From: Dastarcus helophoroides
Lineage: Eukaryota > Arthropoda > Insecta > Coleoptera > Bothrideridae
Assembly (NCBI GenBank): GCA_028583605.1
Contig: CM053332.1
Coordinates: 23,510,823 to 23,574,822, forward strand
Length of the DNA: 64,000 nucleotides
Reading direction: 5' to 3'
This document shows, piece after piece, positions 337-64,000 of the stretch. The notes beneath the pieces are model-generated. The model did not search any database, was not told the DNA's origin, and saw only the letters and a program-made list of their open reading frames with translations. Numbering within the stretch: position 1 is the first letter of the stretch; the number at the start of each line of letters is the position of its first letter. Both the position numbers and the translations under genes were made by a program.

Positions 337-3300
337 GTAAGTTCCGTTTTTTTTTTATGTTGAGTTACATAACTTCGAAATTTCATTTGATTTACGTAAC
401 TTCGAAATTTCATTTTGCTGCGGTACTGGCATAGGCGAAGTTTCGAGCAAATTAAAACATCTTTCGATTTTATTCGAAATTGGTTAGTGTTAGAGAGCAA
501 ATTAAAACGTCTTTCGATTTTATTCGAAACTGGTTAGTGTTAGAGAGTAAATTAAAACATCTTTCGATTTTATTCGAAACTGGTTAGTGTTAGAGAGTAA
601 ATTAAAACATCTTTCGATTTTATTCGAAACTGGTTAATGTTAGAAAGCAATAATTTTGATGGAACGGACTGGTCCTTGGTTATCTTCAAAAATTAAAATA
701 CAGAACTTGTCCCCTGAAACCAAGAAATATTAAAAAACACAACAAAGGTTACTGGCTAACGCGTTTCGACAGTCAAACTGTCATCTTCAGAGAGAAACTA
801 GTAGTTTCGACAGTCAAACTGTCATCTTCAGAGAGAAAGCTAGTAGTTTCTCTCTGAAGATGACAGCTTGGCTGTCGAAACGCGTTAGCCAGTAACCTTT
901 GTTGTGTTTTATAATATTTCTTGGTTTCAGGGGACAAGTTCTGTATTTCAATTTTTTGTTAGAGAGCAAATTAAAACATCTTTCGATCTTATTCGAAACT
1001 GGTTAGTGTTAGAGAGCAAATTAAAACATCTTTCGATTTTATTCGAAGCTGGTTAGTGTTAGAGAGCAAATTAAAACGTCTTTCGATTTTATTCGAAAGT
1101 CGTTAGTTTTAGAGCGGATTCGGTCGAGTTTTGCTTGAAGATTCGCCGTGCCACATACCGAACTGTCTTTGAAATGAAAGGGGTTTCACCTCCGAAATGT
1201 TTACGTTGTGGAATTTTGGCGTTTGCGTTGATTAGACCAGAAGCGACATGGTTCAGCTTTTAAACTAATCTGAAAAGGTACTTTAAGTAAAAAGGTATTT
1301 GTTAATGCACTTCAGTAGCAAAAGTGGTCACGAGATTGCGCGCAATCGAGGATAAATTTGTTTAAATCGCCAGTCGCGATAATGAAACGTTTTGAATATA
1401 ACAAGTAACAAAGTAAGGGTAGAAAGATAGGAAGCACTCGAAATAAGCTAATTAGAGAACGAGTGGTGTTAGCGTCATAATCCCGTGGTTCTACCCACGC
1501 AGACGTTATTCCCAAGTGTACTAACAATAAGCTGAAAAAATTAGCGCTGTTTGTTAAACTGTGGCGTTTTTAACTCGATAATTCGGCCAAGAACCGAACA
1601 TAGTTCGACCAAGAACTGAATATAGTTCGGCTAATAACATAGTTTGGCTAATAACATAGTTTGGCCAATAACTGAATCTAGTTTGGTCAATAATTGAATC
1701 TAGTTCGGCCCATAGTCCCAATATAGCTCGTTTTTGTTGCAAATTCAGGTTGCACAAAAGTTGGTAAATTTCCACGCTTTAATTCGCCAATTAATCGCCA
1801 ATGCTAGACCTTGTCACACATTTCTGTCTGCTTGCATAAAAATTGAAGCCAAAAAAGTGGGGATTTGATAGCCTCAACGGAATTCCTGAAAATTTTCCTT
1901 ACGCGTCAAAGTGCGAAATTCAACACCGGTTTGCTCGAGTTTCGCAGCCGCGAAGCGGTTAACAATCGTTTTTAATTGCACATCTCTCTGTTTAATTAAG
2001 CCGTGTTTGCATTAGTTGACAAAACAATAAGATATATCGTGCTGTTTGTCGCCTTCACAATTCGCACCAATTTAACTGGATTATTACGTTATTGCGACCA
2101 AGTGACAGATGCTGGCGAACAATTTTTGGAGTGTGCAATAAAATTGTCAATTTCAACTTCTCTAAAAGTTTCCATTTCAACTCTTTTTAAACAAAAATCT
2201 TCTATTTTTACAAAGTTTCTATTTTTGGGGAAAAAATCGAAAAATTCGAAATTTCTTTGAACAATTATTTAATGAAAAGTTCGAAATTTTGAGAAACATT
2301 CAATTGAACTCATTCTTCTAGGAAGAAAGAGAAAAAATCGACATCTTTCCCGTTATAAATACAAACATCTTTGAATTAATCCTAACCCTTTAATTCAAAG
2401 GAAGATTCGAACAATTTCTTTATGGAAAGTTCGAAATTGACATCGAAATTTCAATGAAATTTTTTGTTGATCAGGAAGGAGGAAAAATCGACATCTTTCC
2501 CGTTATAAATACAAAAATCGTTGAATTAGTCCAAACTGTTTTGTTTCAAACGAAAAATTGAACAATTAATTTATAGAAAGCTCGAAATTGACACTGAAAT
2601 TCGAGTGAACTCTTTTTTTGAGGAAGAAAAATCGACATCTTCCTCTTGATAAATACCAAAATCTTTGAATTATTCCCAACCCTTTTGGTTTGGAAGGAAC
2701 ATTGTTGAACTTACATCGCCAGGTTATCTAAAAATAATGAATAAAATTGAGCCAGAGCCAAGACGTACCAGTTAGCAATTAAATCGTTTTTCATTCACAT
2801 TTTACTTTCAAGACTGCTCTCCATAAATATTTCGCTTATCCTAAATTCTAGTTCTAAATAATTTTAAACTTGGCGGCTCTCTTTTGGCAACGGAATTCTT
2901 GAAACTACGAGAACGGTGGACTTTTTCAGAAAATCTATTTTTCAAGACCTCTTTGAAAAAAGCGTTGACATTTAGAAACAAAATTGACGTTTAGAAAAAA
3001 AATTGACATTTAGAAAAAAGTTAAAATTCCAAAAAAGTTCCAAATATAATAAATGATAAATGACCAATTAAATGTTCTGTAATTAAACAGTTAAACGTGC
3101 TTAAAATTGAAAATATGTACAACCGCAACCATAGACTAGTTTCGGCCTTCCTTGGCCTCGTCAGCATGGTACGGTGGTTGTATACACTTCCAATCCAAAT
3201 AATAAATGATAATAATACGATATCAAAAACTGAATATTCCTGAAGAAATCGAAATTAATTGAATGTGATATATTCAAGCTTTTTTTTTATTGTTGGTCAG

Positions 3301-6300: not shown

Positions 6301-9300
6301 TCGCTACGCGCGGGTTAAACGGGTGTTTATGTTTGGCCGTGCTCAGCTGATTTGTAACACCTGCGCATTGCGACTAATTAATTCGTGTGAAGGTCAGCGA
6401 GAAAGAGAAGTCTTTCCCATGAGAAACGAGGAACTGGCCATATAAAAGTATTACATATATGGTAAATACCGCGCAGAACACCATCAAGAAATGTCACAGT
6501 GTTGCCACACGACCATGTCTATAACTAGTTCTTGTTGTCGCCACTACAAAATTAAAAGCCCACAACCTACTCTTATTCTTCATGGTAGACCCTTATTGAC
6601 CGGAAATATTATGTTTTTTTTTCAATTTATTTAACATTTCTTCGGCCCAGTTTGGAAATATTTAAATTTTTATGGTTTGTTGACAATTTTCTAAACAATT
6701 TTTGAAATGCGACTACATGAAAACTGTCATGAAGTGACGTTTTCAATAAATTTAAATATCACGTAGTCGCATTTCAAAAATTGTTTAAAAAATTGTCAAC
6801 AAACCATAAAAATTTAAATATTTCCAAACTGGGCCGAAGAAATTTTAAATAAATTGAGAAAAAAAACCTACTCTTATGCAGATTTATCTGAAATGGACTA
6901 TAGTCATGTGGCAACACTGTGTTTTTTTTTAATGATCTGTGTTCTTAAAATCCTAACCTATCATTAAATATTGTGATTTGTTGTCTTTCATTTTGACTGA
7001 TTCTTTATATTTTATGCCGATTCCTGCAAAAAATTATTAAATTGTTGAAAATGGTTACAAAAATAGTGTCGAAAACATTTAGTCCGATTGTTTCTCTCAA
7101 ACAAACGGTGAATGTTATAAAAATGTTTACGCGTAAAGCCAGTTCACGGATTATAGAAGAACATAGAATACTGTTGTAAAAAACGGTGCCGATAAAGTGT
7201 CTCGAACGTAGTAGTACCTTTTCGTGATACCGAAATTGAATTTTACTGCACATTATACCCAAATCAGGAACGAAGTAAATAAATATGGCTACTAAATGGC
7301 TGTTGAAAAATGTCAAAACTTGCCGATTGCGTTTAATCTTAATGTACCTTCTTAGCGTATTCATCCATATTTTTTATGAGAAAGATGATGTGGGAGAAAT
7401 CTACAAATGTTCCAGGTGGGTTATTTGTAGTCTTGCAATAGAATAACTGAGCTGCAATTGCTATTATATCTTGCGCCGTTGATCAACGCTTGCGCGCTTC
7501 AACGATATTTATATCAATATCATGATATTTTTGATATGATATTATCGATATTGCCGATAGCCTATACAAGTCGTCGTCAATAATGAGGATACAGAAATAC
7601 GGAGATCAAGGGTTTTTTTTTTGTCATTAAAAATAACACGCACGAAGTACGCGGAAATTTCAAAACCGTTTAAAACATTTTTTGTTAATTTCCAAACATC
7701 GATTATCGATAAATAAATTTTCGATATTATCGATCATCGATATTTGTCTGCTGTCAATATTTATATCTGTATTAAAATTATCTTGCAGCATACCTAAACG
7801 AGAGAGTGAATAAAAATATTCGAAAGTACTTTATTGTCTGGACGCATTTTAGTCAATTTTTTATACAGGCCAGTATAGGGAGTGCACTAACCTTATTCTA
7901 TAACCCGTGAATGACAACAAGAACTACCAATATTCATATATAGTCATGTGGCAACACTGACGTTCCTTAATGATATTCTATGTTCTTTAAATTCTAACCT
8001 AAATATCGTTTAATATTTTGCTTTGTTGTCGGTTGTTTTAAGAGCGATTCTTTTATATTTTTTTGTCAATTTGCGCAGAAAATTATTAAATTGTTAATAA
8101 GGTGAGCCCTACACCAAGGATACCTCATAAGGTAAATACCGCGCATATACTTTTACCGCATAAAACCAATAGAAACGCGTAGTTTCTGTTTCTAACATCG
8201 TATACCGGGCGTGTAGGTGCACATGTTGCGCGGCACATCTGCGTGCAACATTTTGAGCGTGTCTTGTATTTAATATGCGGTTGACGAGGATTTTGTCAAA
8301 ATTGTTTAATTTTTTTTCTAACTTCAATCCACTTGCAAAGGGCAACCCCGTTATGCCTTCAAAGCAGCGTGAGTAGGATGTGGAAGCAATATCCTTGTTT
8401 ATGGAACTATACTTTGACTGAATGAAGTAATTCTTGAAACTGTTCAGCGTATTATTAAAATAATGAAACATTTACTACACCTGTTAACGCGAATTAGCAA
8501 CGATTTTTACCTCATTTTACATTCTTCATGGTGCACTTTTATTGACCGGAAATATTATGTTTATTAATTTTATTTAACATTTCTTCGGCCCAGTTTGGAA
8601 ATATTTAAATTTTTATTGTTTGTTGACAATATTCTAAACAATTTTCTCTGTAAAATAAACTAAACATTTCAAACACTTTTTAGAATATTGTCAACAAACA
8701 ATAAAAATTTAAATATTTCCAAACTGGGCTGAAGAAATGTTAAATAAAATTAATAAACTCATTTTACATATCGCGTGATGCATGTTTGATGTATCTTTGG
8801 TGTACGCCTACCTTAAATGGAAAACGTTTAATCCGATTAATTCTGCTAAAGAACCCCTCCCAAGACGTTAATCATTAAAATCTTCACCCGTGAAGCCAGC
8901 TTTAGTTTTGGTGATTTTTTTTTTTTTCGTAACTTATGTTAAAGTTACTTCACCGCCTACTCCATAGACATTTACCAGAAACAGTGTTGCCAGGTGCACG
9001 GCAATTATCGTTTTATACGATAATTACCCTTTCCGTGCGATAGTTTAAAGACGAAATTTCGACTATAACCTCAAAATTTCAATTTTAACCCCAAAGTTTC
9101 AACTTTAACCCCAAAGTTTCAACTTTAACCCCAAAGTTTCAACTTTAACCTCGAAATTTAAATTCTAACCTCTAAATTTTTACTTTAATTTTAAAATTTT
9201 TGATCCTTTTCCTCAAAACTTTGCCTTTAAACTAGAAATTTCCGCTTTCAACTTGAAATTTCAGTTTTTTCTCGGAGTTAAGACTTTTCTCGAAATTTCC

Positions 9301-12300
9301 GCCTTAAAGTCGATACTTCGACTTTAAACTTGAAATTTCGATTTTTTTTCTCAAAATTTCGACTTTAATTCCGAGATTTCAACTTTAAATTTAAAATTTC
9401 GACTTTTTTCTCAAAATTTTGAATGTAAACTTGAAGTTTCGACTTTAGTCTTGAAATATCCTCTGTAATTTCTTTGCGAAGTATTCATATTTGTATGCAG
9501 TTTTATTGGCTTTTTCTTCGCGGGTCACTCCTTTCACAATTCTAAATTTCAGTATCAGTTATAGATTGTCGCAAACAGTCTTGAAATTTCGATTTTAATT
9601 TTGAAATTTCGACTTTTTTCTCACAATTCCGAGTCGAATACTTTGAACTTGATATTTCGACTTTAATCTCGCAATTCGACTTAAATCTCGAACTTGCTAT
9701 ATTCTGTGGATAAATTAGACAGATGACAGTTGCGTCCCACCACACCCGTTTCTCAACAATGACAGTTGGCAGTAGAGTGCGTTCAGTATTTTCTATTTTT
9801 AGTTAGCAAAATATCGAGATTAAAAGTCGAAAATTTGAAAAAAAAAATCAAAATTTTCGAATTTTTAAATCAGAATTTTGGGATTTAAGTTGAAATTTCG
9901 ACTTTAATACCGTAATTTCGCGAAAAAAAATCTAAATTTCGGGATTAAGTCAAATTTGAGATTAAAATTGTAATTTCGAAAAAAAAGTCGACATTTCAAG
10001 ATTAAAGTGGACATTCGAGATTAAATATCGAGCTTAGAGTCGAAATTCTGATATTAAAGTCGAAATTCTGAGATTAAGGTCGAAATTTCGAGTTTAAACT
10101 CGAAATTTTGGAGAAAAAGTTGAAATTTCGAATTTAAAATCAAAATCGCAATTCGACTTAAATCTCGAACTTGCTATATTCTGTGGATAAATTAGACAGA
10201 TGACAGTTGCGTCCCACCACACCCGTTTCTCAACAATGACAGTTGGCAGTAGAGTGCGTTCAGTATTTTCTATTTTTAGTTAGCAAAATATCGAGATTAA
10301 AAGTCGAAAATTTGAAAAAAAAATCAAAATTTTCGAATTTTTAAATCAGAATTTTGGGATTCAAGTTGAAATTTCGACTTTAATACCGTAATTTCGCGAA
10401 AAAAAATCTAAATTTCGAGATTAAGTCAAATTTGAGATTAAAATCGACATTTCGAGAAAAAAGTCGAAATATCCAGTTTAGAGTCGAAATTCCGAGATTA
10501 AAGTCGAAATTTCGAGTTTAAAGTCGAAATTTTGGAAAAAAAAGTTGAAATTTCGAATTTAAAGTGAAAATTTCGGGATTAAAGGTGAAATTTCGACTTT
10601 AATACCGAACTTTCGCGAAAAAAAATCGAAATTTCGAGATTAATTCGAAATTAAAATCGTAATTTCGAGAAAAAAGTCGACATTTCAAGATTAAAGTGGA
10701 AATTCGAGATTAAAATCGTAATTTCGAGAAAAAAGTCGAAATATCGAGTTTAGAGTCGAAATTCTGAGATTAAAGTCGAAATTATAAGATTAAAGTCGAA
10801 ATTCTGAGATTAAAATCGACATTTCGAGAAAAAAGTCGAAATATCCAGTTTAGAGTCGAAATTCCGAGATTAAAGTCGAAATTTTGGGAAAAAAAAGTTG
10901 AAATTTCGAGTTTAAAGTCGAAATTTTGGAGAAAAAAGTTGAAATTTCGAATTTAAAGTGAAAATTTCGGGATTAAAGGTGAAATTTCGACTTTAATACG
11001 GGAATTTCGCGAAAAAAGTCGAAATTTCGAGATTAAGTCGAAATTAACATCGAAATTTCGAGATTAAGTCGAAATTAACATCGAAATTTCGAGATTAAGT
11101 CGAAATTAACATCGAAATTTCGAGATTAAGTCGAAATTAACATCGAAATTTCGAGATTAAGTCAAAATTAACATCGAAATTTCGAGAAAAAAGTCGAAAT
11201 TTCGAGAAAAAAATCGAAATTTCGAGAAAAAAGTCGAAATTTCGAGAAAAAAGTCGAAATTTCGAGAGAAAAATCGAAATTTCGAAGAAAAAGGTCGAAA
11301 TTTCAAAAAAAAAGTGGAAATTTTGAGCAAAGTAAATTAAAAAAAAAAGTGTAATCGATATCCTTTTCTACATCTTCGTACAGTTTTGAGTTGGAAATCA
11401 ATTTAATTTCGCCTCCAAATGTCAAATTATTCAAGAAACGTTTATATTATTTGTCATTTCAACTCTAATCTCGAATCATCAACATTTTTTTTCCTGAAAT
11501 ATTAAAGAAAACTTGGGCATTTGGAGGTTTTTGTTTGATATTTTAAAGTTAGTTTAGTTGGAGGAAAAGCAGACAGACCAGAGCTCCTGAAACGCATTAG
11601 GAGCCTAAAAATAACGAGAGCGCCACCGTCAACTCACGGATGAAGGTCCGTACTTTTCAAAGTGTGCAATTATAATGAAAACATTGGTCCCATCGGATTT
11701 TCCACCTAATTTCTAATTATTGTCCTCTTTAAATTCGAATTCGTTACCTTTTTTCTCTTCGGGGACTTTTTTCCGTAGAACTTCCAAGCTATGGAACTCG
11801 TTACCGAACGGAATTTTCAAAACTTAGAATCTATCCTTGTTTAAGAAGGGGGTACATCGCCATCTATCCTTATTTCCGCATCCTACTCGCGGTGCTTTGA
11901 AGGCATAATGGGGTTATCCTTTGCGAGTGGATTGAACATCAAAAAATTGAATTTAAAATCGAATTTTCGAATTTAACGACACAATTTTGAAAATTTCGTC
12001 TTAAATCACAAAATATCAACGTGAAAGTTGCTAGTAGTATGAATTTTAATAATTCAAATTTTGAAAAGGGCAAAGATTTAAAAACAGGACAAATTTCTTA
12101 AAAAAATGAAAAAAATTCAGTTCAGTTCAGCTCAAAATTTTTACATTTTAAGTGTTTTTATTTTCGAACTTAATTTAGGTTTTAAACTCGACATTCTACC
12201 TTTTTCTAAAAAGTTCGACTCTACTAGAAACTTCATTAAAGTTGAAATTAAAAAAATAGAATTTCCATTTTAAAATTTTTTCGAAAAGTCGGAAATTTTA

Positions 12301-15300
12301 GAGTTAAAAATTGTTTTCTCAAATTTTCTTTCTGGATTCACCACGCAGCTAAATAAGTACAAAAATTGGTTACATTTATCGTTTATTGGAAAAACAACTT
12401 GTAACATGTAAGGGAAAAAAAATTGGGGCTTTACATAGCTTTTTTTGAGTTCATTTATGACTTCATGGGATTCCCTTAATTCCACGTTGTCTACGCCAGT
12501 GTTGCTTAGTATGCCTTATCGTTGCTAATCAATTAGATTCATTTAAGCATATCGAGACCATGTATTGGTAAATGTTTAAATTATTATTTAAATAAATGAA
12601 ACTTCCTTTGATTGTTATAATAGTTTAGAGTTAGATTAGTTTAGAATTAAATAAGAAACAACATATTCTGTATAATACAGTAAACATTTCGAAGATTCAT
12701 AGTAAACATTTCGAAGATTCATTGATTCATGTAATACTGTACTCAAAAATAATCCCACTTTTGGACGTTTTACTAGAATTACATTTTTTTGCAGCTGTGC
12801 AATTTCAAGAGAACCTTCTCAAGACAATGCTTCAGATAGAAAACACCTTCTTCGAGCTGGGAAGAACGTGCAACAGAAACTGTCTCATAATTTGTGATAG
12901 GGGCGCCATGGATGCTTCAGCATGTAAGTCAATTTAAACGTCAATTTAGTCAATAACACATCCAAAATGTGTAGACCACTAGCGTTCAACGCCAATAGAT
13001 TTCAATATTTATCAGATTCAGACTTTGGGAACCAAAGACCGGTTTCGACTTGATAGTAGTTTAGGTCGTACTCCATTTGGGTAACGTTCAAAAGTGAAAT
13101 CAGGTTTAATTTCTGCGTTACTTTTAAATAAAAATTAAAATAGTTCTGTGTTGGCATTTTTAAATCAAAATTTAGTTTTCGAGTTTCACCTTTTATTATA
13201 TTTCGTGGCGGCGGCATCAATTGTTAGATTGTTAGTTTCGCTCGAGTGCACTTTCCAATTTATTTTGCAGTTATTACGGAAGAAAAATGGGAATCCATCA
13301 AAAAGGACAACTGCTGGAACGACGTGGAGCTTCGCGATAACAGATACAATCAGATTATCCATATGGTCTCGGCGGCCAAAGGAGCGGAAGAATTTTACTC
13401 CATAGAGGTACGATTTTGCTTGTAAATATTTTCAACTGTAGCACGTTCGACTGTCTAATTATAGAACATTTAATTGACTAATTATAGAACCTTTGACTAA
13501 TTATAGAACATTATATTTTCTTTTCCGTTAGGACCACAACTGCAGGTCAGAAGACGTGGAACTCGCCCGCGACCTGGACACCAAAGCGGCCGCTTCCTGG
13601 ATCGGCCACCCCTATTTCGACGTCATTGACAACTCGACGGATTTCGAAGGGAAAATTCGCCGGATGATCGGCTCGGTCTGCCTTAAAATCGGCATCGATA
13701 CCGGCGACAGATTGCTCAAGAATTCGAGGAAGCGAAAATTCCTCGTCAAGGGCCCATTGCCCAATATGGAAAAATTCGTTTCCTTTCAAGACTTCGAAGT
13801 CGTCCACAACTATCTCCAGTCTAACGCGCCCACGCAAGTTAGGTTGAGAAAACGTGGACAGAAAGGTGAGGAAAAAAGACATATTCGGGATCTGTAGAAT
13901 TTTTACTTCGTTTATTTTTTATTTAATCGAATCGATGTATTTTGGAGAAATATAGTTTTAAATGCATGACCCGCATTTTATTTCTTTATCAAAAAAAAAG
14001 TTACGATTGCAATAATTTAAAATAGGTAAGCATTCGTTTGGTGGTTTTATAAGTAAACTTGCATGCATTACAGAGTGACAAAAAAGTTAAAAATACTGTT
14101 CGGTGTTTCATCTGCAATTCCTGAGGTTTACCATCAGATTCTTGATGTTTACCATCAGATTCCTGATGTTTACCATCAAATTCCTGATGTTTACCATCAA
14201 TGAAACAGAAAAAATAGTTTCCACAACAACAGCGCTATGACTGGTATTTGTGTTACAAAATAAAAATTTTCAAATAAACGAAATTTTTTGCCAAATTTCG
14301 CTTATATTAGATTATATCGAAACATAGTCTAACGCTTTTGGTGAAATAGGTCACTACAGCTACATCCACACGGTCAGGAGACAGAATCAGCCGGGTGGTC
14401 AAATCATCGAGGTCAAAACTCAAATCACACACCGGGACTATATCAACTTGTTGACGCAAAAAGACGATTCGCATTTCACCATCTTTAAAAAACGGAGGTG
14501 CTTCCTCGTCAATAATCAGTATTTTCAACTTGACATCTATCAAGAACCGAGCCATCCGAGATGCAGAGGTTTAATGCTCTTGGAGACTTACTCTGTCTTG
14601 GACGACGATAAATTGTTGAACACGTTACCAAAGTTTTTGGACATCGAGCGAGAAGTAACTGGAAACCCTGACTATTCCATGTATAATTTGTCGCTGAGGG
14701 AAGATTGGACTACTTCGAAAAAATTCTGGACGTTCGGAGAAAGTAAGTAAATCATTCGACTCGTAGCTGCTGCGTTATCAAGCTAAAAATAAGGAAAGCG
14801 GCAGAAATCTTATATAAAATATTTGTTAAGTTGCTTGCTTATTTAAAACGTAAATTCAAGCACAAAAATATCATACTCACTGAGGAAATTTCGACTTTTT
14901 TTTAATCTATTGACTTATTTTGAAAATTTCAAATTTCAGATTCTCATTTTGAAAATTTCAAATTTCAGATTCTCATTTTGAAAGTTTCAAATTTCAGATT
15001 CTCATTTTGAAAATTTCAAAATATCCAGTTTTCAAATTTTGACGATTTCAACTCTTTCGATATTTCATCTTTTCTCGACATTTAGACCTATCTGCTAAAG
15101 TCAATTTTTGTCCAAAATTTCGCCTTATTTGATAAATTTCTTCTAGCTTCTTCAGCTACTTAAATAAATATGGGATAGACAATAAGATCAACATGAAAAC
15201 CTTCTTTTTAAGTAATTAATTTTCTCTACTTTCAGGCCCCGAAGATCTACCATGCCGTTCAATCAAAGGCCCACAAGGGGATAGTAAAGTGAATGGACTC

Positions 15301-17245: not shown

Positions 17246-17926
17246 TTATTTCTTTTGACTAATGTACTGTTTCATAACTTTTTTGCCGGGCACCAGGCCC
17301 TCGCTCAAGCCTGGTCTCTTCTTCTTATTCCTTTGATTTAAAACCGCCTCGTCCTTGATTTTGTTTATTTCCTCGAGCGTCGGTTGCGGTATATCCTGGT
17401 TTTGGCACACCACCGTGTGTTGCGTTTGTTTCTCGGCGTCCAGTTGTTCTTTCGTCTTTTGTAAATCCGAATCGTGCGCGTATTTACAATTATGTCCAAA
17501 CCTACATCTACCTTTTCGATAATTCCAGCATATCCTCTTCCCGTTGATTACGATGAGTTTATCCTTGGCGTCCACCATTTTTACATGTTTCTGCAACAGA
17601 GCCTCTTTGGCATTTTCCGCTTCCATGAACGGATTTTTAAATACTGAATTAGAGAGCGCTGTGCTGGGGTCATCGCCGATGAAACTCGGTGGTGGTAGCT
17701 TTGTTTTCGATTCTTCGATAGCGCTGAAACATGCAACAGCTAAACCTTTTTTTGTAAAGGTGAATGACCCAAATTCGCAACAAACGTAGTTACATTTTTA
17801 AAAGCGTAGCTAATAAGCTGGCGATGTTTTACTTTGACGTTACCTTATCACTTCGGTTTCTTCCTCGCTTTCACTTTCGGATGATGAAGAGGCCGAGGAA
17901 TTTCCATAATCGGGCACCAAAGACAT
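17246..17926 (-). CDS. Small CCCH-type zinc-finger protein
   Basis: Two exons: 17844-17926 (ATG at 17926) and 17246-17723 (stop TAA 17248-17246), joined by a 120-bp GT-AG intron; 187 residues by splice prediction. The N-terminus MSLVPDYGNSSASSSSESES is acidic and serine-rich. Exon 2 has a PPPSFIGDDPSTALSNSVF segment, then ICWNYRKGRCRFGHNCKYAH, a C-x7-C-x5-C-x3-H zinc finger of the RNA-binding type. The C-terminal half is lysine-rich (RNKKKRPGLSEGLVPGKKV). I know small conserved metazoan proteins of this layout but cannot name the orthologue. The first exon and upstream region are duplicated at 19680-20390. A nuclear RNA-related role is inference from the finger and basic tail. Confidence 0.85.
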
Positions 17927-18330
17927 TATAAATTAAATAAAATAGTAGTTTGGTAAATGACAGTTTGATTTTGAGGTTAAATTTTATTTATATTCTATGC
18001 TTCCACTTTATCAGTGTTGCCAATGTATTAAACAGAATTTATATATACTTAACACTAAATATATAGGCGTATAAGAGAATTGAAAATTAAAAGCGCCATC
18101 TACAAAGAAAAACGAAGCTTTTAAACGTAGTGGCACGAAATTAATGTTTGACTTAAATTATCGTGCCTTTAAAGTAATTGCGTATTGATTCATATCAATT
18201 GCATTTAAATAAAATTAGAAATAAAATGTTTGATTACATTATCAAGTAAGACGTTAAAGGTTGAATATTAATAGTATTCTATGATTGTATTGTGCCCGCA
18301 TTGCCAGATTTACAAACTTCTCTTCAGAAT
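17850..18330. repeat. Source copy of a segmental duplication (CCCH gene 5' end and promoter)
   Basis: Exon 1 of the CCCH gene and about 400 bp upstream are repeated at about 19680-20390 in the same orientation with some 5-10% divergence by eye. Shared blocks include CACTTTCGGATGATGAAGAG, GGTTGAATATTAATAGTATT and CTATGATTGTATTGTGCC. Confidence 0.85.
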
Positions 18331-18600
18331 TTTGTTCCATTAAGAAGTATTGAAGAAAATAGTAATATTTTTAGAAAAATTACTCAAATATGAATAATTT
18401 TTGTTGAAACTGAATTATTTTGCCAAAAATATTCAAACATTAACAAACCAAACTGAAAAAAAATAAATTTTTTAATAATTTTAACTAAATTTCCAAAATT
18501 ACGAGAAACGGTTGAAGTTTCGAGTTAAATTGTTCGAAAAACAGATTATAAATTGAAATAGATCAATTGAGGTAATTGTCTGGTATTGCAAGGTGCATAG

Positions 18601-18952
18601 TGTAACGCAATGTAAATAGATAGAATAGAATTAGTGCGTAAGAAAAGTTTTCAGAAAGATCTGATAAGGGAAAAGCGGCCGCGGAACAAACGGTAGATAA
18701 GCGTTCCAGAAATTTCGGCAAACGATAAGCCTTATCTGCGTGATTTTTGTAGAACCTGGGAGCCAAAACTATATAAGGCGGTCAGTTTTCCCTCGAGTTA
18801 GTTAGTCAGCATTATAATTAGTGAGTTACTAGTTAGAAGTAAATAAGTGAGTTCATTATTCAGTTGTAGTGTTCCAAGTTTAGTTTGGTAATAAAGTGGG
18901 TACCATTCAGTTCACATGTTAATAATCAATTCGAACCGATAAGCCCGCAACA
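18601..18952 (+). mobile_element. Solo LTR, copy 1
   Basis: 352 bp from TGTAACGCAATGTAAATAGA to AAGCCCGCAACA (TG...CA ends) with a 4-bp target duplication ATAG on each side. It contains a TATA box (TATATAAG at 18770-18777), an initiator-like GTTAGTTAGTCAG about 25 bases later and an AATAAAG signal near 18889. About 75-80% similar by eye to 45534-45909. No primer-binding site or internal region follows. The 4-bp duplication fits a Ty3/gypsy- or BEL-type element. Confidence 0.85.
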
Positions 18953-19076
18953 ATAGCAATATCCAGCGCCCTCTACCTTTTATTTATTTATTTTTGTAGT
19001 ATGTTAAACTTACAATAACAATAACAACAAAACTATTTATTAACAAAGTACAAAAAATAACATTCAAAATACTGAA
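18953..19076. other. 3' flank of RAD51D
   Basis: Contains AATAAA on the minus strand at 19041-19036, about 36 bases after the RAD51D stop, a candidate polyadenylation signal. Confidence 0.5.
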
Positions 19077-19550
19077 TTACAAGGATACAATCCCTCGGGA
19101 AGAAATTAAAACATTGGTCTTTCCCTTTGGTAACACTCTGCTTTTATCAATGGAAATTAGGACCTCATTATTGTCCGGATTTTTTTTCATAATCAACCGC
19201 GTGTCTGGAATATTCAACCAGTATTTTCCACACGCTACTTTTTCGGTTGAGCCCAGCGTTACTTTAAAGTCGCCCTCGACGAAAGTGGTCAATAAATTCA
19301 CGACCAAAAAGCAAACGTAAAATTTATTGGCAATGTAACGCATGATATTTGCGATGTGGTTGAGGAGGTTGTTTCTTTCATCACAGGACGATGAGTCCAC
19401 CATGGCGGCAGGTAATGAGTCTATAACGACGAGTCTCATTTGCAAACCATTTTCCAATTCGTTTTTGATGGCATATAGGCTGTTTAACAAATCGTACTTG
19501 TTTGTGGCTTTCTTAATTAGGATGTTTTGTAGTGCCTCCGCTAATGTTAC
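19077..19550 (-). CDS. Rad51D: RAD51D exon 4 (Walker B and C-terminal core)
   Basis: Acceptor GTATTTTCCAG on the minus strand. It encodes VTLAEALQNILIKK, then MRLVVIDSLPAAMVDSS (Walker B, hydrophobic stretch then Asp), FLVVNLLTTF in the position of the conserved NH(I/L)T strand, and GKYWLNIPDTRLIM near the C-terminus. It joins exon 3 in phase 0. Confidence 0.9.
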   Translation of the reverse strand, partial: VTLAEALQNILIKKATNKYDLLNSLYAIKNELENGLQMRLVVIDSLPAAMVDSSSCDERNNLLNHIANIMRYIANKFYVCFLVVNLLTTFVEGDFKVTLGSTEKVACGKYWLNIPDTRLIMKKNPDNNEVLISIDKSRVLPKGKTNVLISSRGIVSL

Positions 19551-22500
19551 CTGGAAAATACATCTTAGGTTAGCAAACGTTTGTTATTTTAAGAATTATA
19601 GATAAACTGATGTATTGATTGATTGATGTCGTTGATCAAATATTTATTCCATCAACGATGACGTCGATTGACGTTGACTTCGGTTTCTTGTTTCTTCCTC
19701 GCTTTCACTTTCGGATGATGAAGAGGCCGAGGAATTTCCATAATCGGGCACCAAAGACATTATAAATTAAATAAAATAGTAATTTGGAAAATGACAGTTT
19801 GATTTTGAGGTTAAATTTAATTTATATTCTATGCTTCAACTTTATCAGTGTTGCCAATGTATTAAACAGAATTTATATATACTTAACACTAAATATATAG
19901 CCGTATAAGAGAATTGAAAATTAAAAGCGCCACCTACAAAGAAAAACGAAGCTTTCAATCGTAGTGGCACGAAATTGATATTTAACTTAAATTATCGTAC
20001 CTTTAAAGTAATTGCGTATTGATTCAAATTGAATTTAAATAATATTTTAAATAAAGTGTTTAATTACATTATCATGATTATTTTAAAAAAAGTCAGTTAC
20101 AAGCCACCCGATGGAGGTTTACTCTCTTGGATACTTATACAACTGACTAACGGCTTTAAGTTGGAAGTGTATACAATCACCGTACCATGCTGATGAGGCC
20201 AAAGAAGGCCGAAACTAGTCTATGGTTACGACTGTACATATTTTCAATTTTAAGCACGTTTAACTGTTTAATTACAGAACATCTAATTGGTCGTTTGTCA
20301 TGATTATTTAAGTAAGATTTTAAAGGTTGAATATTAATAGTATTCTATGATTGTATTGTGCCGCATTGCCAGATTTACAAAATTTTCACAACACAAACAG
20401 ACAGACGAACATACTTCCCCAGAGACTATACTTAGTTTCTCTATGTACTTCCCCATTTATATATTAGTTGCAAGGATATAATGTTTTAACGAGGGGTACC
20501 CATGTCACAAAAGTTAGGGAAAGGGCACACAGATGTCGAAAGTTTGGGAAACATTGCACTAGACGTTTTCTTACCTTATCGTCACAATCTTCCAATAATT
20601 GTTTCATTTTTCTGCCTGAAAAATCATTTTTAGTGTCGATGTAGTAGCAAGACTTTTTCAAATGTAATACTGTGTGTCTGACGACAGTTAACGCAAATAT
20701 TGTCTTCCCTGACGCTGGAGGACCGCATATTTCGTATATGTTTCCAGTCAGTAGACCTCCATCGAGAATCGAGTCGACACTGAAAATGTTATCACACGAA
20801 TCAGGAACGTATACTGTTTCTACTGGTTGCAAATTAAAATAATAAGTGGGAAATTTTGAAAATCTGATTAAAAAAATAAATCGAAATTAATCAAATTATT
20901 TTCCCGCAGTTTTACTTTTTTATTTTCATTTTGACTAACTCAAGCTAGACTTGGGGCTTTTTGAAAATGAACTTTCTTTAAAATATCAATCAAGAAGGAT
21001 ATTCGACATTTTCAAAACAAGAAATTTTAAAAATTTCGAATTTTTCAAAATTTTGTTTTTCGAGGTTTTCGACTTTTGAAAAATTTAGATTTTTTTTCTA
21101 ATTTCCCCCTTTCTATTGTTGCAAATTTCGACCTTTCTTAAAATATTCGATTTCCAAAATTTCGACTTTTTTGTAATTTTAACATTTTTTTCAAATTTGG
21201 ATTTCTCCAGAATTTTAGATCTTGATTTTTTTTTCCAAACTGTCGACTTCGGAAGAATCGGCCTTTTTCACAGTTTTCACATTTTGATAATTCCAATCGT
21301 TTTCCAAAGTTGGCGTTTTTTCGAAATTTTGACTTTTTTTTTGATGTTTTTGATTTATTTTTTCATGATCTCTCTTTTTCCCGAAATTTTGACTTTATCT
21401 CGTAAATTTTCACTTTTCCGAAAATTTTAGTTGTGCTTTTTTCACAAAATGTCAACTTTTGAAATTTCGATTATTTTCTCATTTTATCATTTTTATGAAA
21501 ATTTCAACTATTTTCAAAATGTTGACTTTTTCTCGAAGTTTTGACTATTTGCCGAAAGATATGACTTATTTTTGATGTTTTAAGCTTTTTCTTTAAATTT
21601 CAACTTTTTGTAAACTTGACTTTTTACTTAAAAAATTGAAGTTTCTTTTCAAAATTTGGGCTTTTTTGACAATTTGAACCATATTGAAAATTTTGTAGTT
21701 TTGAAAATGCCGATCTTTTTCGAAATTTCCTCCCTTTTTTTTTGAAAATTTCTACGAGGCGTAGAAAGGACATCAATAAAAAATAAAGATTTCGAGTTTA
21801 AAATCGAAGTTGCGACCTTTTTCTCAAAATTTAAACATTCATCTCGAAATTTCGACTTTTTTCCTAAGATTAAAGTCAAAATTTTGATTTTAATCACAAA
21901 ATTTCGACTTTAGTTAAGAAGGCGTAGATAGGACATCGATTAAAACAAATTATTTTTAGAAATTTCGACTTTTTTCTCGAAATTTCGACATTTTTCTCGA
22001 AATTTCGACTTTTTTTTAGAAAAATCCAATTTTATCTGGAAATTTAGACCTTTTTCTCGAAATTTAGGCTTTTTTCTCAAAATTTCGACTTTCTTCTAGA
22101 AATTTTGACTTTTTTCTCGAAAATTCGTCTTGTTTTTTTCTAGAAAATTCTCCTATTTCTCAAAATTTCGACTGTTTTCGAAACATTTCGACTTTTTTAT
22201 AGAAAATTCTATTTTTTCTCGAAATGTCGATTTTCTCCTCGGAATGTAGACTTTTTTTTAGAAAATCGAACTCTTTAATCGAAATTTCGGCTTTTTCTCG
22301 ACATTGTTACTTTTTTCTCGATATTGCTACTTTTTTCTCGACATTGCTACTTTTTTCTAGAAAATATCACATTTTTCTCAAAATTTGGACTTTTTTACCG
22401 AAATTGTAACTTTTTTTTCTTGAAATTTTTATTTTTTTTCTTGAAATGTCGACTTTTCTCAAAAATTTGACTTTTTTCTGGAAATTCCAATTTTTATTTC

Positions 22501-25500
22501 AAAATTTGTATATTTTAATAAAATTCGACTTTTTCTCGAAAATTCGATTTTTTTTAGAAATTTCGACTTTTTTCTTGAAATTTCGACTTTCTTCTAGAAA
22601 GTTTGACTTTTTTCGCAACATTTCGACTTTGTTTTAGAACATTCTAGTTTCATCTGGAAATTTAGACCTTTTTCTCGAAATTTAGGATTTTTTCTCGAAA
22701 ATTCGACTTTTTTTTTAGAAATTTCGACTTTTTTCTTGAAATTTCGACTTTCTTCTAGAAAGTTTGACTTTTTTCGCAACATTTCGGCTTTTTTTGGAAC
22801 ATTCTAGTTTTATCTGGAAATTTAGACCTTTTTCTCGAAATTTAGGATTTTTTCTCGAAATTTCGACTTTTTTTTAGAAATTTCGATTTCTTTCTTAAAA
22901 TTTCGACTTTCTTGTAGTAAAAAGTTTAACTTTTTTCGCAACATTTCGACTTTTTTTTAGAACATTCTAGTTTTCTCTGGAAATTTAGACGTTTTTCTCG
23001 AAATTTAGGATTTTTTCTTGAAATTTCGACTTTTTTTGCAACTTTTCGACTTTTTTCTAAAAAATTCTATTTTTAGCTGGAAATTTAGCCTTTTTTCTCG
23101 AAATTTAGGTTTTTTTTTCTGAGTATTTCGACTTTCTTCTAGAAATTTCGATTTTTTTACTCGAAATTTCGACTTTTTTCTCGAAATTTAGTTTTTTTTT
23201 TCTAGAAAATTCTATTTTTTCTTGAAATTTCGACTGCTTTCGAAACATTTCGACTTTTTCTAGAAAATTCTATTTTTTTTTGAAATGTCGATTTTCTCGG
23301 AATTTCGACTTTTTTTCTAGAAAATTCCACTTTTTTCTCAAAATTTAGACTTTTTGCTCGAAATTATAACTTTTTTTTCTCGAAAATTCGTCCTTTTGTT
23401 TTTAGAAATTTGTATATTTTTATAAATTCCGACTTTTTCTCGAAAATTCGACTTTTTCTCGAAAATTCGACTTTTTTCTGGAAATCTGAACTTATTTCTT
23501 GAAATTACGACTTTCTTCTAGAGTTTTCAACTTTTTTCTAGAAAATCCTACTTTTATCTGGAAATTTAGATCATTTTCTCGAAATTTAGACTTTTTTCTG
23601 GACATTTTGACTTTCTCCTAGAAATTTCGACATTTTTCTAGAAATTTCGACTCTTTTGTCTAGAAATTTCGACTTTTCTCTAGAAATTTCGACTTTTCTT
23701 TAGAAACTTCGACTTTTTTCTAGAAAATCCCACTTTTATCTGGAAATTTAGATCATTTTATCGAAACTTAGACTTTTTTCCCGACATTTTGACTTTCTTC
23801 TAGAAATTTCGACTTTTTTTCTCGAAATTTCGACTTTTTTTCTAGAAATGTCGACTTTTCTCTAGAAATTTCGACTTTCTTCGAAAAATTTTGTCTTTTT
23901 TCTGGACAATTCTATTTTTTTTTCGAAATTTCGACTGTTTTCGAAACATTTCGACGTTTTTCTAGTACTTTTTCTCGAAATGTCGATTTTCTTCTCGGAA
24001 TGTCGACTTTTTTCTAGAAATTTCGACTTTTTTGTCGAAATTTCGACATTTTATCGACATTTCGATTTTTTTTCTCGCCATTTCGAACTTTTTCTCTTGA
24101 AATTTCGCCTTTTTCTCTCAAAATTTCGACTTTTTATCTCGAAATTTGGACGTTTTTCCCGAAATTTGGATTTAATCTCCGGATTTCTATTTTGATCTCG
24201 AAATTTCGAATTTTTTGTCGAAATTTCGATTTTCATCTCGAAATTTCGTCTTTAATCTCGGAATTTCCAAAAAAAAGACAACTAACCTACTGTCAACTGT
24301 CAATATTGTTGGCAAAGGAAAGTAATGGTACGCAACTATCATCTGCCCAACTGTAGAGTATAGAAATTTCTACTTTAATCTGGAAATTGAAAGAAAAATG
24401 TCGAAAATTCGAGATTAAAGATGAAATTTCGACATTATCCTGCATTTTCAAGAAAAAAGTCGAATTTTCGAAAAAATAAGTTTAAATTTCGAGATCTAAG
24501 TCAAAGTTTCCAGATTAAATTGAAAATTTCAAGAAAAAAGTCGAATTTCGAGAAAAAAATCGAAATTTTATGAAAAAAATCGAAATTTCGAGTTTTAAGT
24601 CGAAATTTTGAGAAAAAAGTTGAAATTTCGAGTTTTAAGTCCAAATTTTGAGAAAAAAGTCTAAATTTTGATTTTTTATCTCGAAATTTGGACGTTTTTC
24701 TCGAAATTTGGATTTAATCTCCGAACTTCTATTTTGATCTCGAAATTTTGACTTTCATCTCGAAATTTCGACTTTAATCTCGGAATTTCCAGAAAAAAGA
24801 CAACTAATCTACTGTCAACTGTCAATATTGTTGGGAAAGGGAAATGGTGATACGCAACTGTCATCTGTCCATCTGTAGAGTATAGGAATCTCTACTTTAA
24901 TCTCGAAATTGAAAGAAAAATGTCGAAAATTCGAGATTAAAGATGAAATTTCAACTTTAATCCTGCATTTTTAAGAAAAAAGTCGAAATTTCAAGAAAAA
25001 AAAGTCTAAATTATGAGATTTAAGTCGACGTTTCCAGATTAGAGTCAACATTTTGAGAAAAAAGTCGAAATTTCAAGAATTAAGTCGAAATTTCGAGAAA
25101 AAAAGTCTAAATTTCGAGATTTGAGTCGAAGTTTCCAGATTAAAGTCAAAATTTTAATAAAAAAGTCGAAATTTCAAGAAAAAAGTCGAAATTTCGAGTT
25201 TTAAGTCGAAATTTTAAGAAATAAATTTAAAATTATTAGATTAGCTTCCCTATTTATAAACGGCACGAAGCGCCATTGTGTTTGAATAGGGGAAATTTTT
25301 TACCTTGAAAAAGTGTTAGGGTCGCCACTTATAAAAGATATGGGACGCCACTGCCTTTTTGTTCTATGTTCTATATGTAATTCAATTTTTGTCTAGCGTC
25401 ACAGAGTAACGTTTGACATATATTTTAAATGTCACATTCGAAATTTAAACTATAATAATTAGACAACATTTTTAAATAGAATAATAACAAGTCGATACAA

Positions 25501-31202: not shown

Positions 31203-64000
<32,798 letters not shown>

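Follow-up and report, generated by a model that had tools for sequence, protein, structure and literature searches.

We analysed a 64,000-nucleotide stretch of the genome of the beetle Dastarcus helophoroides (GCA_028583605.1, contig CM053332.1, positions 23,510,823 to 23,574,822 of the forward strand; hereafter the window, numbered from its first letter), in which a hammerhead ribozyme had been predicted within an intron. We observed that the ribozyme motif lies in a 214-bp insert (copy 1, 20084..20297, + strand), which sits between direct repeats and is absent from a paralogous segment of the window. The intron that holds it spans 20574 to 19551 of the − strand, as placed by splice consensus only, and the exons on either side of it have Pfam matches to the Rad51 family. 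Relative to this host gene the ribozyme is antisense and, being on the opposite strand, cannot form in the host pre-mRNA. The original prediction of an intron-borne retroposon therefore stands as regards a mobile insert in an intron, given the insert-free paralog and the splice consensus, but the ribozyme strand is opposite to that of the host gene. Judged from its sequence, the hammerhead is a genuine type I motif that falls below Rfam's curated threshold and belongs to a small retroposon.

Core bases, stems and helix III of the hammerhead

A type I hammerhead has an open stem I, a CUGANGA...GAAA core, an A15.1-U16.1 pair and H at position 17, and the alignment of Rfam family HH9 agrees with this list. 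Reading the + strand, we found all invariant bases between 20172 and 20236, in the order and at the positions predicted, C17 at 20220 included. The core CTGATGA (20190-20196) is followed by the predicted 4-bp stem II (20197-20210), in which GGCC at 20197-20200 pairs with GGCC at 20207-20210 around a 6-nt loop 2, AAAGAA (20201-20206). GAAA occupies 20211-20214, with A15.1 at 20214, U16.1 at 20219 and C17 at 20220. Inner stem I consists of six pairs, ACCATG/TATGGT (20184-20189 with 20221-20226). Beyond internal loop 1, ACCGT/TAC, we found the expected outer helix, which runs past the limits first given to it and comprises 18 pairs broken by a single unpaired position (20160-20178 with 20230-20248). 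The internal loop (ACCGU/UAC in the RNA) and the 6-nt loop 2 are both present as candidates for a loop-loop contact. From the HH9 match, the fold and the pair counts, the hammerhead with its extended stem I was delimited to 20160..20254 (+ strand), and its place in the fold predicts self-cleavage 3′ of C17, at 20220..20221. The core, the A15.1-U16.1 pair, H17 and the open stem I are found in both ribozyme copies of the window, the second of which (copy 2) lies on the − strand.

Both copies were compared with Rfam HH9 (RF02275), whose gathering score is 52 bits. Copy 1 matched over 20172-20242 with 25.7 bits (E = 1.3e-4 in a 201-nt scan and 2e-4 in a 301-nt scan) and copy 2 matched with 22.7 bits (E = 0.0019), which supports the predicted type I assignment in two copies. 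The covariance-model check proposed at the outset thus gave a match that is significant but below threshold. Because its score is half the gathering score, copy 1 is overlooked by a default Rfam scan; a scan of the whole window at gathering thresholds returned one match, a small nucleolar RNA, and no hammerhead. The bare pattern CTGATGA..GAAA matched the window once against 1.15 matches expected by chance, so this match is no evidence. Type I descriptors, composed after the motif was seen, were also run on simulated windows of like dinucleotide content. The loose descriptor found two sites in the window, both of them copies of the element, and gave three hits in 200 simulated windows. A stricter descriptor, in which the outer helix is required, found two sites, one per strand, and gave three hits in 1000 simulated windows.

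The 95-nt hammerhead region is more stable than its shuffles in both copies (z = −3.63 for copy 1 and −5.13 for copy 2, with 0 of 200 shuffles equally stable in each case), these energies being those of the minimum-energy structure, which differs from the full hammerhead fold and retains stem II, most of stem I and the long outer part. Standard pairs fill 55 of the 56 pair cells of the stated structure over the two copies, and outer stem I is paired at 18 of 18 positions in copy 2. Compared with the minimum-energy structure, a fold in which inner stem I and stem II are enforced is less favourable by 1.0 kcal/mol in copy 1 and by 0.2 kcal/mol in copy 2. The stem II pairs have a probability of 1.0; those of inner stem I range from 0.13 to 0.98 in copy 1 and from 0.31 to 0.99 in copy 2, and from 0.53 to 0.99 when the pair that closes the stem is set aside.

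Helix III is reduced to the A15.1-U16.1 pair around a CUAG loop, so that the palindrome ACUAGU fills 20214..20219 (+ strand), and a stable helix III is not present. A 2020 review (PMC7761336) attributes a stable helix III to most invertebrate motifs, whereas the element described here has a helix III of the axolotl kind. The word canonical in the original prediction was therefore too strong, because a weak helix III of this form is unlike the stable one of most invertebrate motifs. The axolotl motif HHR_Amex1 has the same single pair under a palindromic tetraloop, and it is reported to cleave poorly alone and well in dimeric constructs (Cervera and de la Pena 2020, PMC7229834). ACUAGU is self-complementary, so that a 6-bp helix III could arise between two molecules. 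By analogy with the axolotl motif, fast cleavage probably needs the pairing of two copies, because helix III is here a single A-U pair with a CUAG loop.

Copies of the element and their insertion sites

We found two further copies of the element in the window. Copy 2 (3058..3194, − strand) carries a hammerhead at 3100-3194 with predicted cleavage between 3134 and 3133, and copy 3 (13421..13476, + strand) consists of the tail only. Neither copy had been part of the original prediction, which also lacked the longer outer helix and the single-pair helix III. Positions 20161-20308 align with 3193-3048 of the opposite strand at 92.6% identity. Aligned over 137 bases that begin at the base of stem I and include the tail, copies 1 and 2 differ by nine substitutions, all of them transitions, plus one end gap. 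These substitutions affect U7, loop 2 (one), loop 1 (one), outer stem I (four) and the tail (two); the invariant core bases, stem II, inner stem I and ACUAGU are untouched. The change of U7 to C concerns position 7 of the hammerhead, which is free to vary. Copy 3 is the equivalent of 20233-20289, with 84% identity over 57 bases (nhmmer E = 5e-21). When the window was searched with a covariance model built from copies 1 and 2, only those two loci were recovered, together with their opposite strands (E = 0.009 and 0.015), and no third ribozyme.

These data bear on the simplest alternative, that the motif resembles a hammerhead by chance. Such an origin would be compatible with Rfam scores under the gathering cut-off, with a simple pattern expected about once per window and with the simulated hits of the loose descriptor. 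It is extremely unlikely given the rarity of hits to the stricter descriptor, the fold z-scores of both copies and the retention of the core between two mobile copies.

The three copies share a 3′ part and start at different points. The tail (20255..20297, + strand) is common to copies 1 and 2 and, in part, to copy 3, which ends in 19-nt tandem units. Copy 1 begins at 20084, which is 76 bases upstream of the start of copy 2 at the equivalent of 20160, the foot of stem I, and copy 3 begins near 20233, past the ribozyme. The additional 5′ part holds a hairpin domain found in copy 1 only (20090..20150, + strand; minimum free energy −17.7 kcal/mol, z = −3.24, 0 of 200 shuffles equally stable). A match of this domain to the exon at 14550-14590 (E = 0.003) was judged to be chance among many comparisons. 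The GC content over 20084-20308 is 37%, and the predicted RNA is highly self-paired. No tandem copies were found at the three loci within the window (tandem repeat finder on 18500-21000), and we did not favour a DNA transposon or Helitron as the origin, because inspection by eye revealed no terminal inverted repeats. With a second copy and a tail-only copy elsewhere, and the insert missing from a duplicated segment, we regard copy 1 as a dispersed mobile element of ~214 bp.

The duplicated segment measures 467 bp and occurs twice at ~94% identity, once without the element (17856-18322) and once with it (19690-20387). In the former, the paralog of the insertion region was delimited to 18017..18322 (+ strand), and its empty site, at 18243/18244, reads ATTATC/AAGTAAG; apart from the insert, the only gaps in the alignment of the two segments measure 4 nt and 1 nt. 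Through the duplication, a CCCH zinc-finger gene (Pfam) seems to have contributed its upstream region and first exon (assigned by eye) to the intron of the neighbouring Rad51-family gene. Copy 1 is flanked by the 12-nt direct repeat TCATGATTATTT on the left (20072..20083, + strand) and on the right (20298..20309, + strand), which may be a target site duplication or terminal redundancy. The direct repeats of copy 2 measure 19-21 nt and differ by 2 bp between the two sides; on the − strand, TTATCATTTATTATATTTGGA lies 3′ of the copy (3039..3059) and TTATCATTTATTATTTGGA lies 5′ of it (3194..3212).

Copy 3 lies in a 123-nt intron (13409-13531) that is mostly element tail and 19-nt tandem repeats. 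We considered an introner origin of the whole intron and mostly dropped it after aligning ten chosen of the 166 protein matches to the spliced reading (120 listed). Two of these, P0124 and P0126, read through the junction unbroken, so that the intron is seemingly absent from them; they are clusters whose longest contigs measure 294 kb and 112 kb, and these contigs are judged to be genomic from their length. A third, P0163, starts 3-4 residues ahead of the junction, and its first letters disagree with the exon, which suggests an intron at the same place. The 123-nt intron is probably old, because P0163 is read as having it too.

Elsewhere in the window, similarity to Helicase domino proteins is seen for the exon at 31510-32946, the best named among the matches listed being that of the beetle Anoplophora glabripennis (69%; best 120 of 279), which by itself points to an insect, probably a beetle, as the host. 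A TATA-like box and an AATAAA were noticed by eye in the first member of a repeat pair of ~74% identity (18597-18955 and 45530-45912); the pair may represent solo long terminal repeats (LTRs). Large, diverged AT-rich arrays (TTTCGAAATTTCGAC-like by eye) are common to at least the distant regions 21316-25240, 53364-57220 and 9044-11380, inverse in the last. Direct repeats spaced ~620 bp apart are seen at 36115-39262 and 41962-42898, with an inverted copy nearby.

Proposed mechanism and competing explanations

We consider it likely that the element is a short, non-autonomous, non-LTR insect retroposon whose RNA carries a type I hammerhead on an 18-pair outer stem I. Four points are seen directly: the sequence is compatible with the fold, its core is intact in two of two ribozyme copies, the copies lie at separate loci, and a paralog without the insert exists. 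The element would be transcribed from the ribozyme strand, and the RNA would be cleaved 3′ of C17 (20220), weakly in a single molecule, where helix III is one pair. Most of the cutting would probably take place in paired molecules or between neighbouring copies, whose ACUAGU palindromes would join into a 6-bp helix III and act faster. The RNA would then be reverse-transcribed into new sites with the help of an autonomous partner, either a long interspersed nuclear element (LINE) or a Penelope-like element. Target-primed reverse transcription yields ragged 5′ ends and a common 3′ part, and it fits the element best because the 3′ part is common to the copies and the 5′ ends differ. A more specific version is possible, albeit somewhat unlikely: a linear-RNA hammerhead retroposon that moves by target-primed reverse transcription in the manner of a short interspersed nuclear element (SINE), has its tail in common with its autonomous partner and uses its ribozyme as a dimer via ACUAGU.

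Several observations weigh against the retroposon with a working type I ribozyme. Both Rfam scores are at half the gathering score or below, and outer stem I of copy 1 has one A.C mismatch that copy 2 lacks. The one compensatory outer pair (U-A to C-G) is no better than in shuffles (269 of 500; two sequences only). In both copies, the lowest-energy single-strand structure joins CUG of the core to UAG immediately upstream of the cleavage site, and the pair closing inner stem I has a probability of 0.13 in copy 1 and 0.31 in copy 2. This competing optimum leaves activity possible, because energy models ignore tertiary contacts, and as a modelled structure it would fit a weak monomer. A two-strand cofold gave no palindrome duplex as its optimum, so that dimer action rests on the amphibian precedent. 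Finally, the paralog lacks any copy of TCATGATTATTT, where a plain target site duplication predicts otherwise; either a small indel arose independently at this place in the paralog, or the repeat is part of the element.

The missing repeat would be expected if the copies were retrozyme monomers made from circular RNA, with copying slightly beyond one turn, so that the 12-21-nt repeats are terminal redundancy rather than target site duplications. In agreement with this, the empty site lacks the repeat within a 467-bp alignable segment that has few other gaps (4 nt and 1 nt), and animal retrozymes have been reported as ~170-400 nt RNAs, both linear and circular. A 10-bp indel in the paralog would also account for the empty site. 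The repeats of copies 1 and 2 are also alike, to a modest degree. Among 20000 random 12-mers of the window, 191 scored as well as the copy 1 repeat against the left repeat of copy 2 (151 of 8844 when GC-matched), but against the right repeat, where the resemblance is weak, 2235 did so (1955 of 8844 when GC-matched). Part of the copy 2 repeat looks like target sequence instead, because TTTGGAA occurs twice in the right flank. Moreover, circles should give permuted ends and, in many cases, tandem copies, whereas the three copies agree in their 3′ part and not in their 5′ part, and the window holds no tandem copy. We regard an origin from circular RNA as unlikely.

We weighed, in addition, whether copy 1 might be a fragment of a Penelope-like element or Terminon, elements with minimal type I hammerheads, devoid of helix III, in their terminal repeats. 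The near absence of helix III recalls such motifs, most of which are reported as dispersed in the 2020 review (PMC7761336). The same review describes Penelope motifs as minimal, without helix III or loop-loop interaction, whereas stem I of the hammerhead here includes an internal loop and a long outer helix. The Penelope-like layout, a reverse transcriptase gene with hammerhead-bearing pseudo-LTRs, was not found at copy 1, which is a 214-bp insert bounded by the empty-site paralog and too short to encode a reverse transcriptase; in the rest of the window, the search for this enzyme covered ten chosen open reading frames, by Pfam. This origin is very unlikely.

A decayed, inactive relic, in which the ribozyme marks past activity, overlaps with the retroposon that we favour and does not exclude it. 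This has a little less than an even chance in our judgement. Copies 2 and 3 diverge from copy 1 by 7.4% and 16%, the ribozyme has been lost from copy 3, and copy 1 has both the stem I mismatch and the competing minimum-energy fold, all of which would suit a relic. It is less easily reconciled with the full core, stem II and inner stem I kept in both ribozyme copies.

Relation to known hammerhead elements

Metazoan non-LTR retrozymes are tandem repeats, from dimers to multimers, of a short, low-GC unit of 150-450 bp, and their target site duplications, when present, are longer than 4 bp. Copy 1 (214 bp) is inside this size range and copy 2 (137 bp) slightly below it. The copies are flanked by direct repeats of 12 and 19-21 nt, and the empty-site paralog lacks the copy 1 repeat. 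As described (PMC7229834), these retrozymes resemble our element in having a type I hammerhead, a short AT-rich unit, no LTR and a strongly self-paired predicted RNA; ours differs in being single rather than tandem (three copies) and in its common 3′ tail and variable 5′ ends. Because the copies available show no tandem arrangement, we do not count it among the retrozymes proper. Going by its sequence features, the element appears to act like a retrozyme or a ribozyme-bearing SINE. The SINE-like pattern of a fixed 3′ end and variable 5′ ends is seen in three copies only, and copy 3 ends differently past the tail. Apart from the hammerhead, an Rfam scan of 20040-20340 showed no tRNA or other small-RNA family of note (next best E = 2.9 or worse), and the TTTT runs at 20241 and 20248 are possible terminators for polymerase III.

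HHR_Amex1, said to resemble amphibian satellite motifs, has the same kind of helix III; as described (PMC7229834), it differs from the present element, which has an insect host, no satellite array and a length of 137-214 bp versus ~330 bp. The pDo500 satellite of Dolichopoda cave crickets is likewise an insect hammerhead with a proposed double-hammerhead form, but, as described (PMC2837043), it is a satellite repeat whose double form joins via stems I and II, not stem III. The Penelope-like and Terminon minimal hammerheads, in the 2020 review (PMC7761336), share a nearly missing helix III and dispersed motifs, in contrast to the long stem I with an internal loop and the 214-bp copy without reverse transcriptase found here. 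An ACUAGU-hammerhead pattern had 0 loci in viral contigs and its GGCC-stem form had 0 in prokaryote species genomes, two collections in which insect DNA is not expected. Among the titles and opening lines of abstracts listed, no beetle hammerhead retroposon appeared, which is weak evidence of absence, the papers on Penelope hammerheads being outside this coverage.

Hammerhead-bearing elements are already known from many animals, and this one is a further member of that kind. It indicates that an insect hammerhead with a reduced helix III can escape the default Rfam threshold. If the linear-RNA version were true, the element would follow a route unlike the circular-RNA cycle proposed for animal retrozymes. 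If the pattern holds genome-wide, it would link a hammerhead of animals with a dispersed retroposon whose 5′ ends are ragged and whose insertion is missing from a paralogous segment, and whether the template of such elements is linear or circular RNA would become a question that can be asked.
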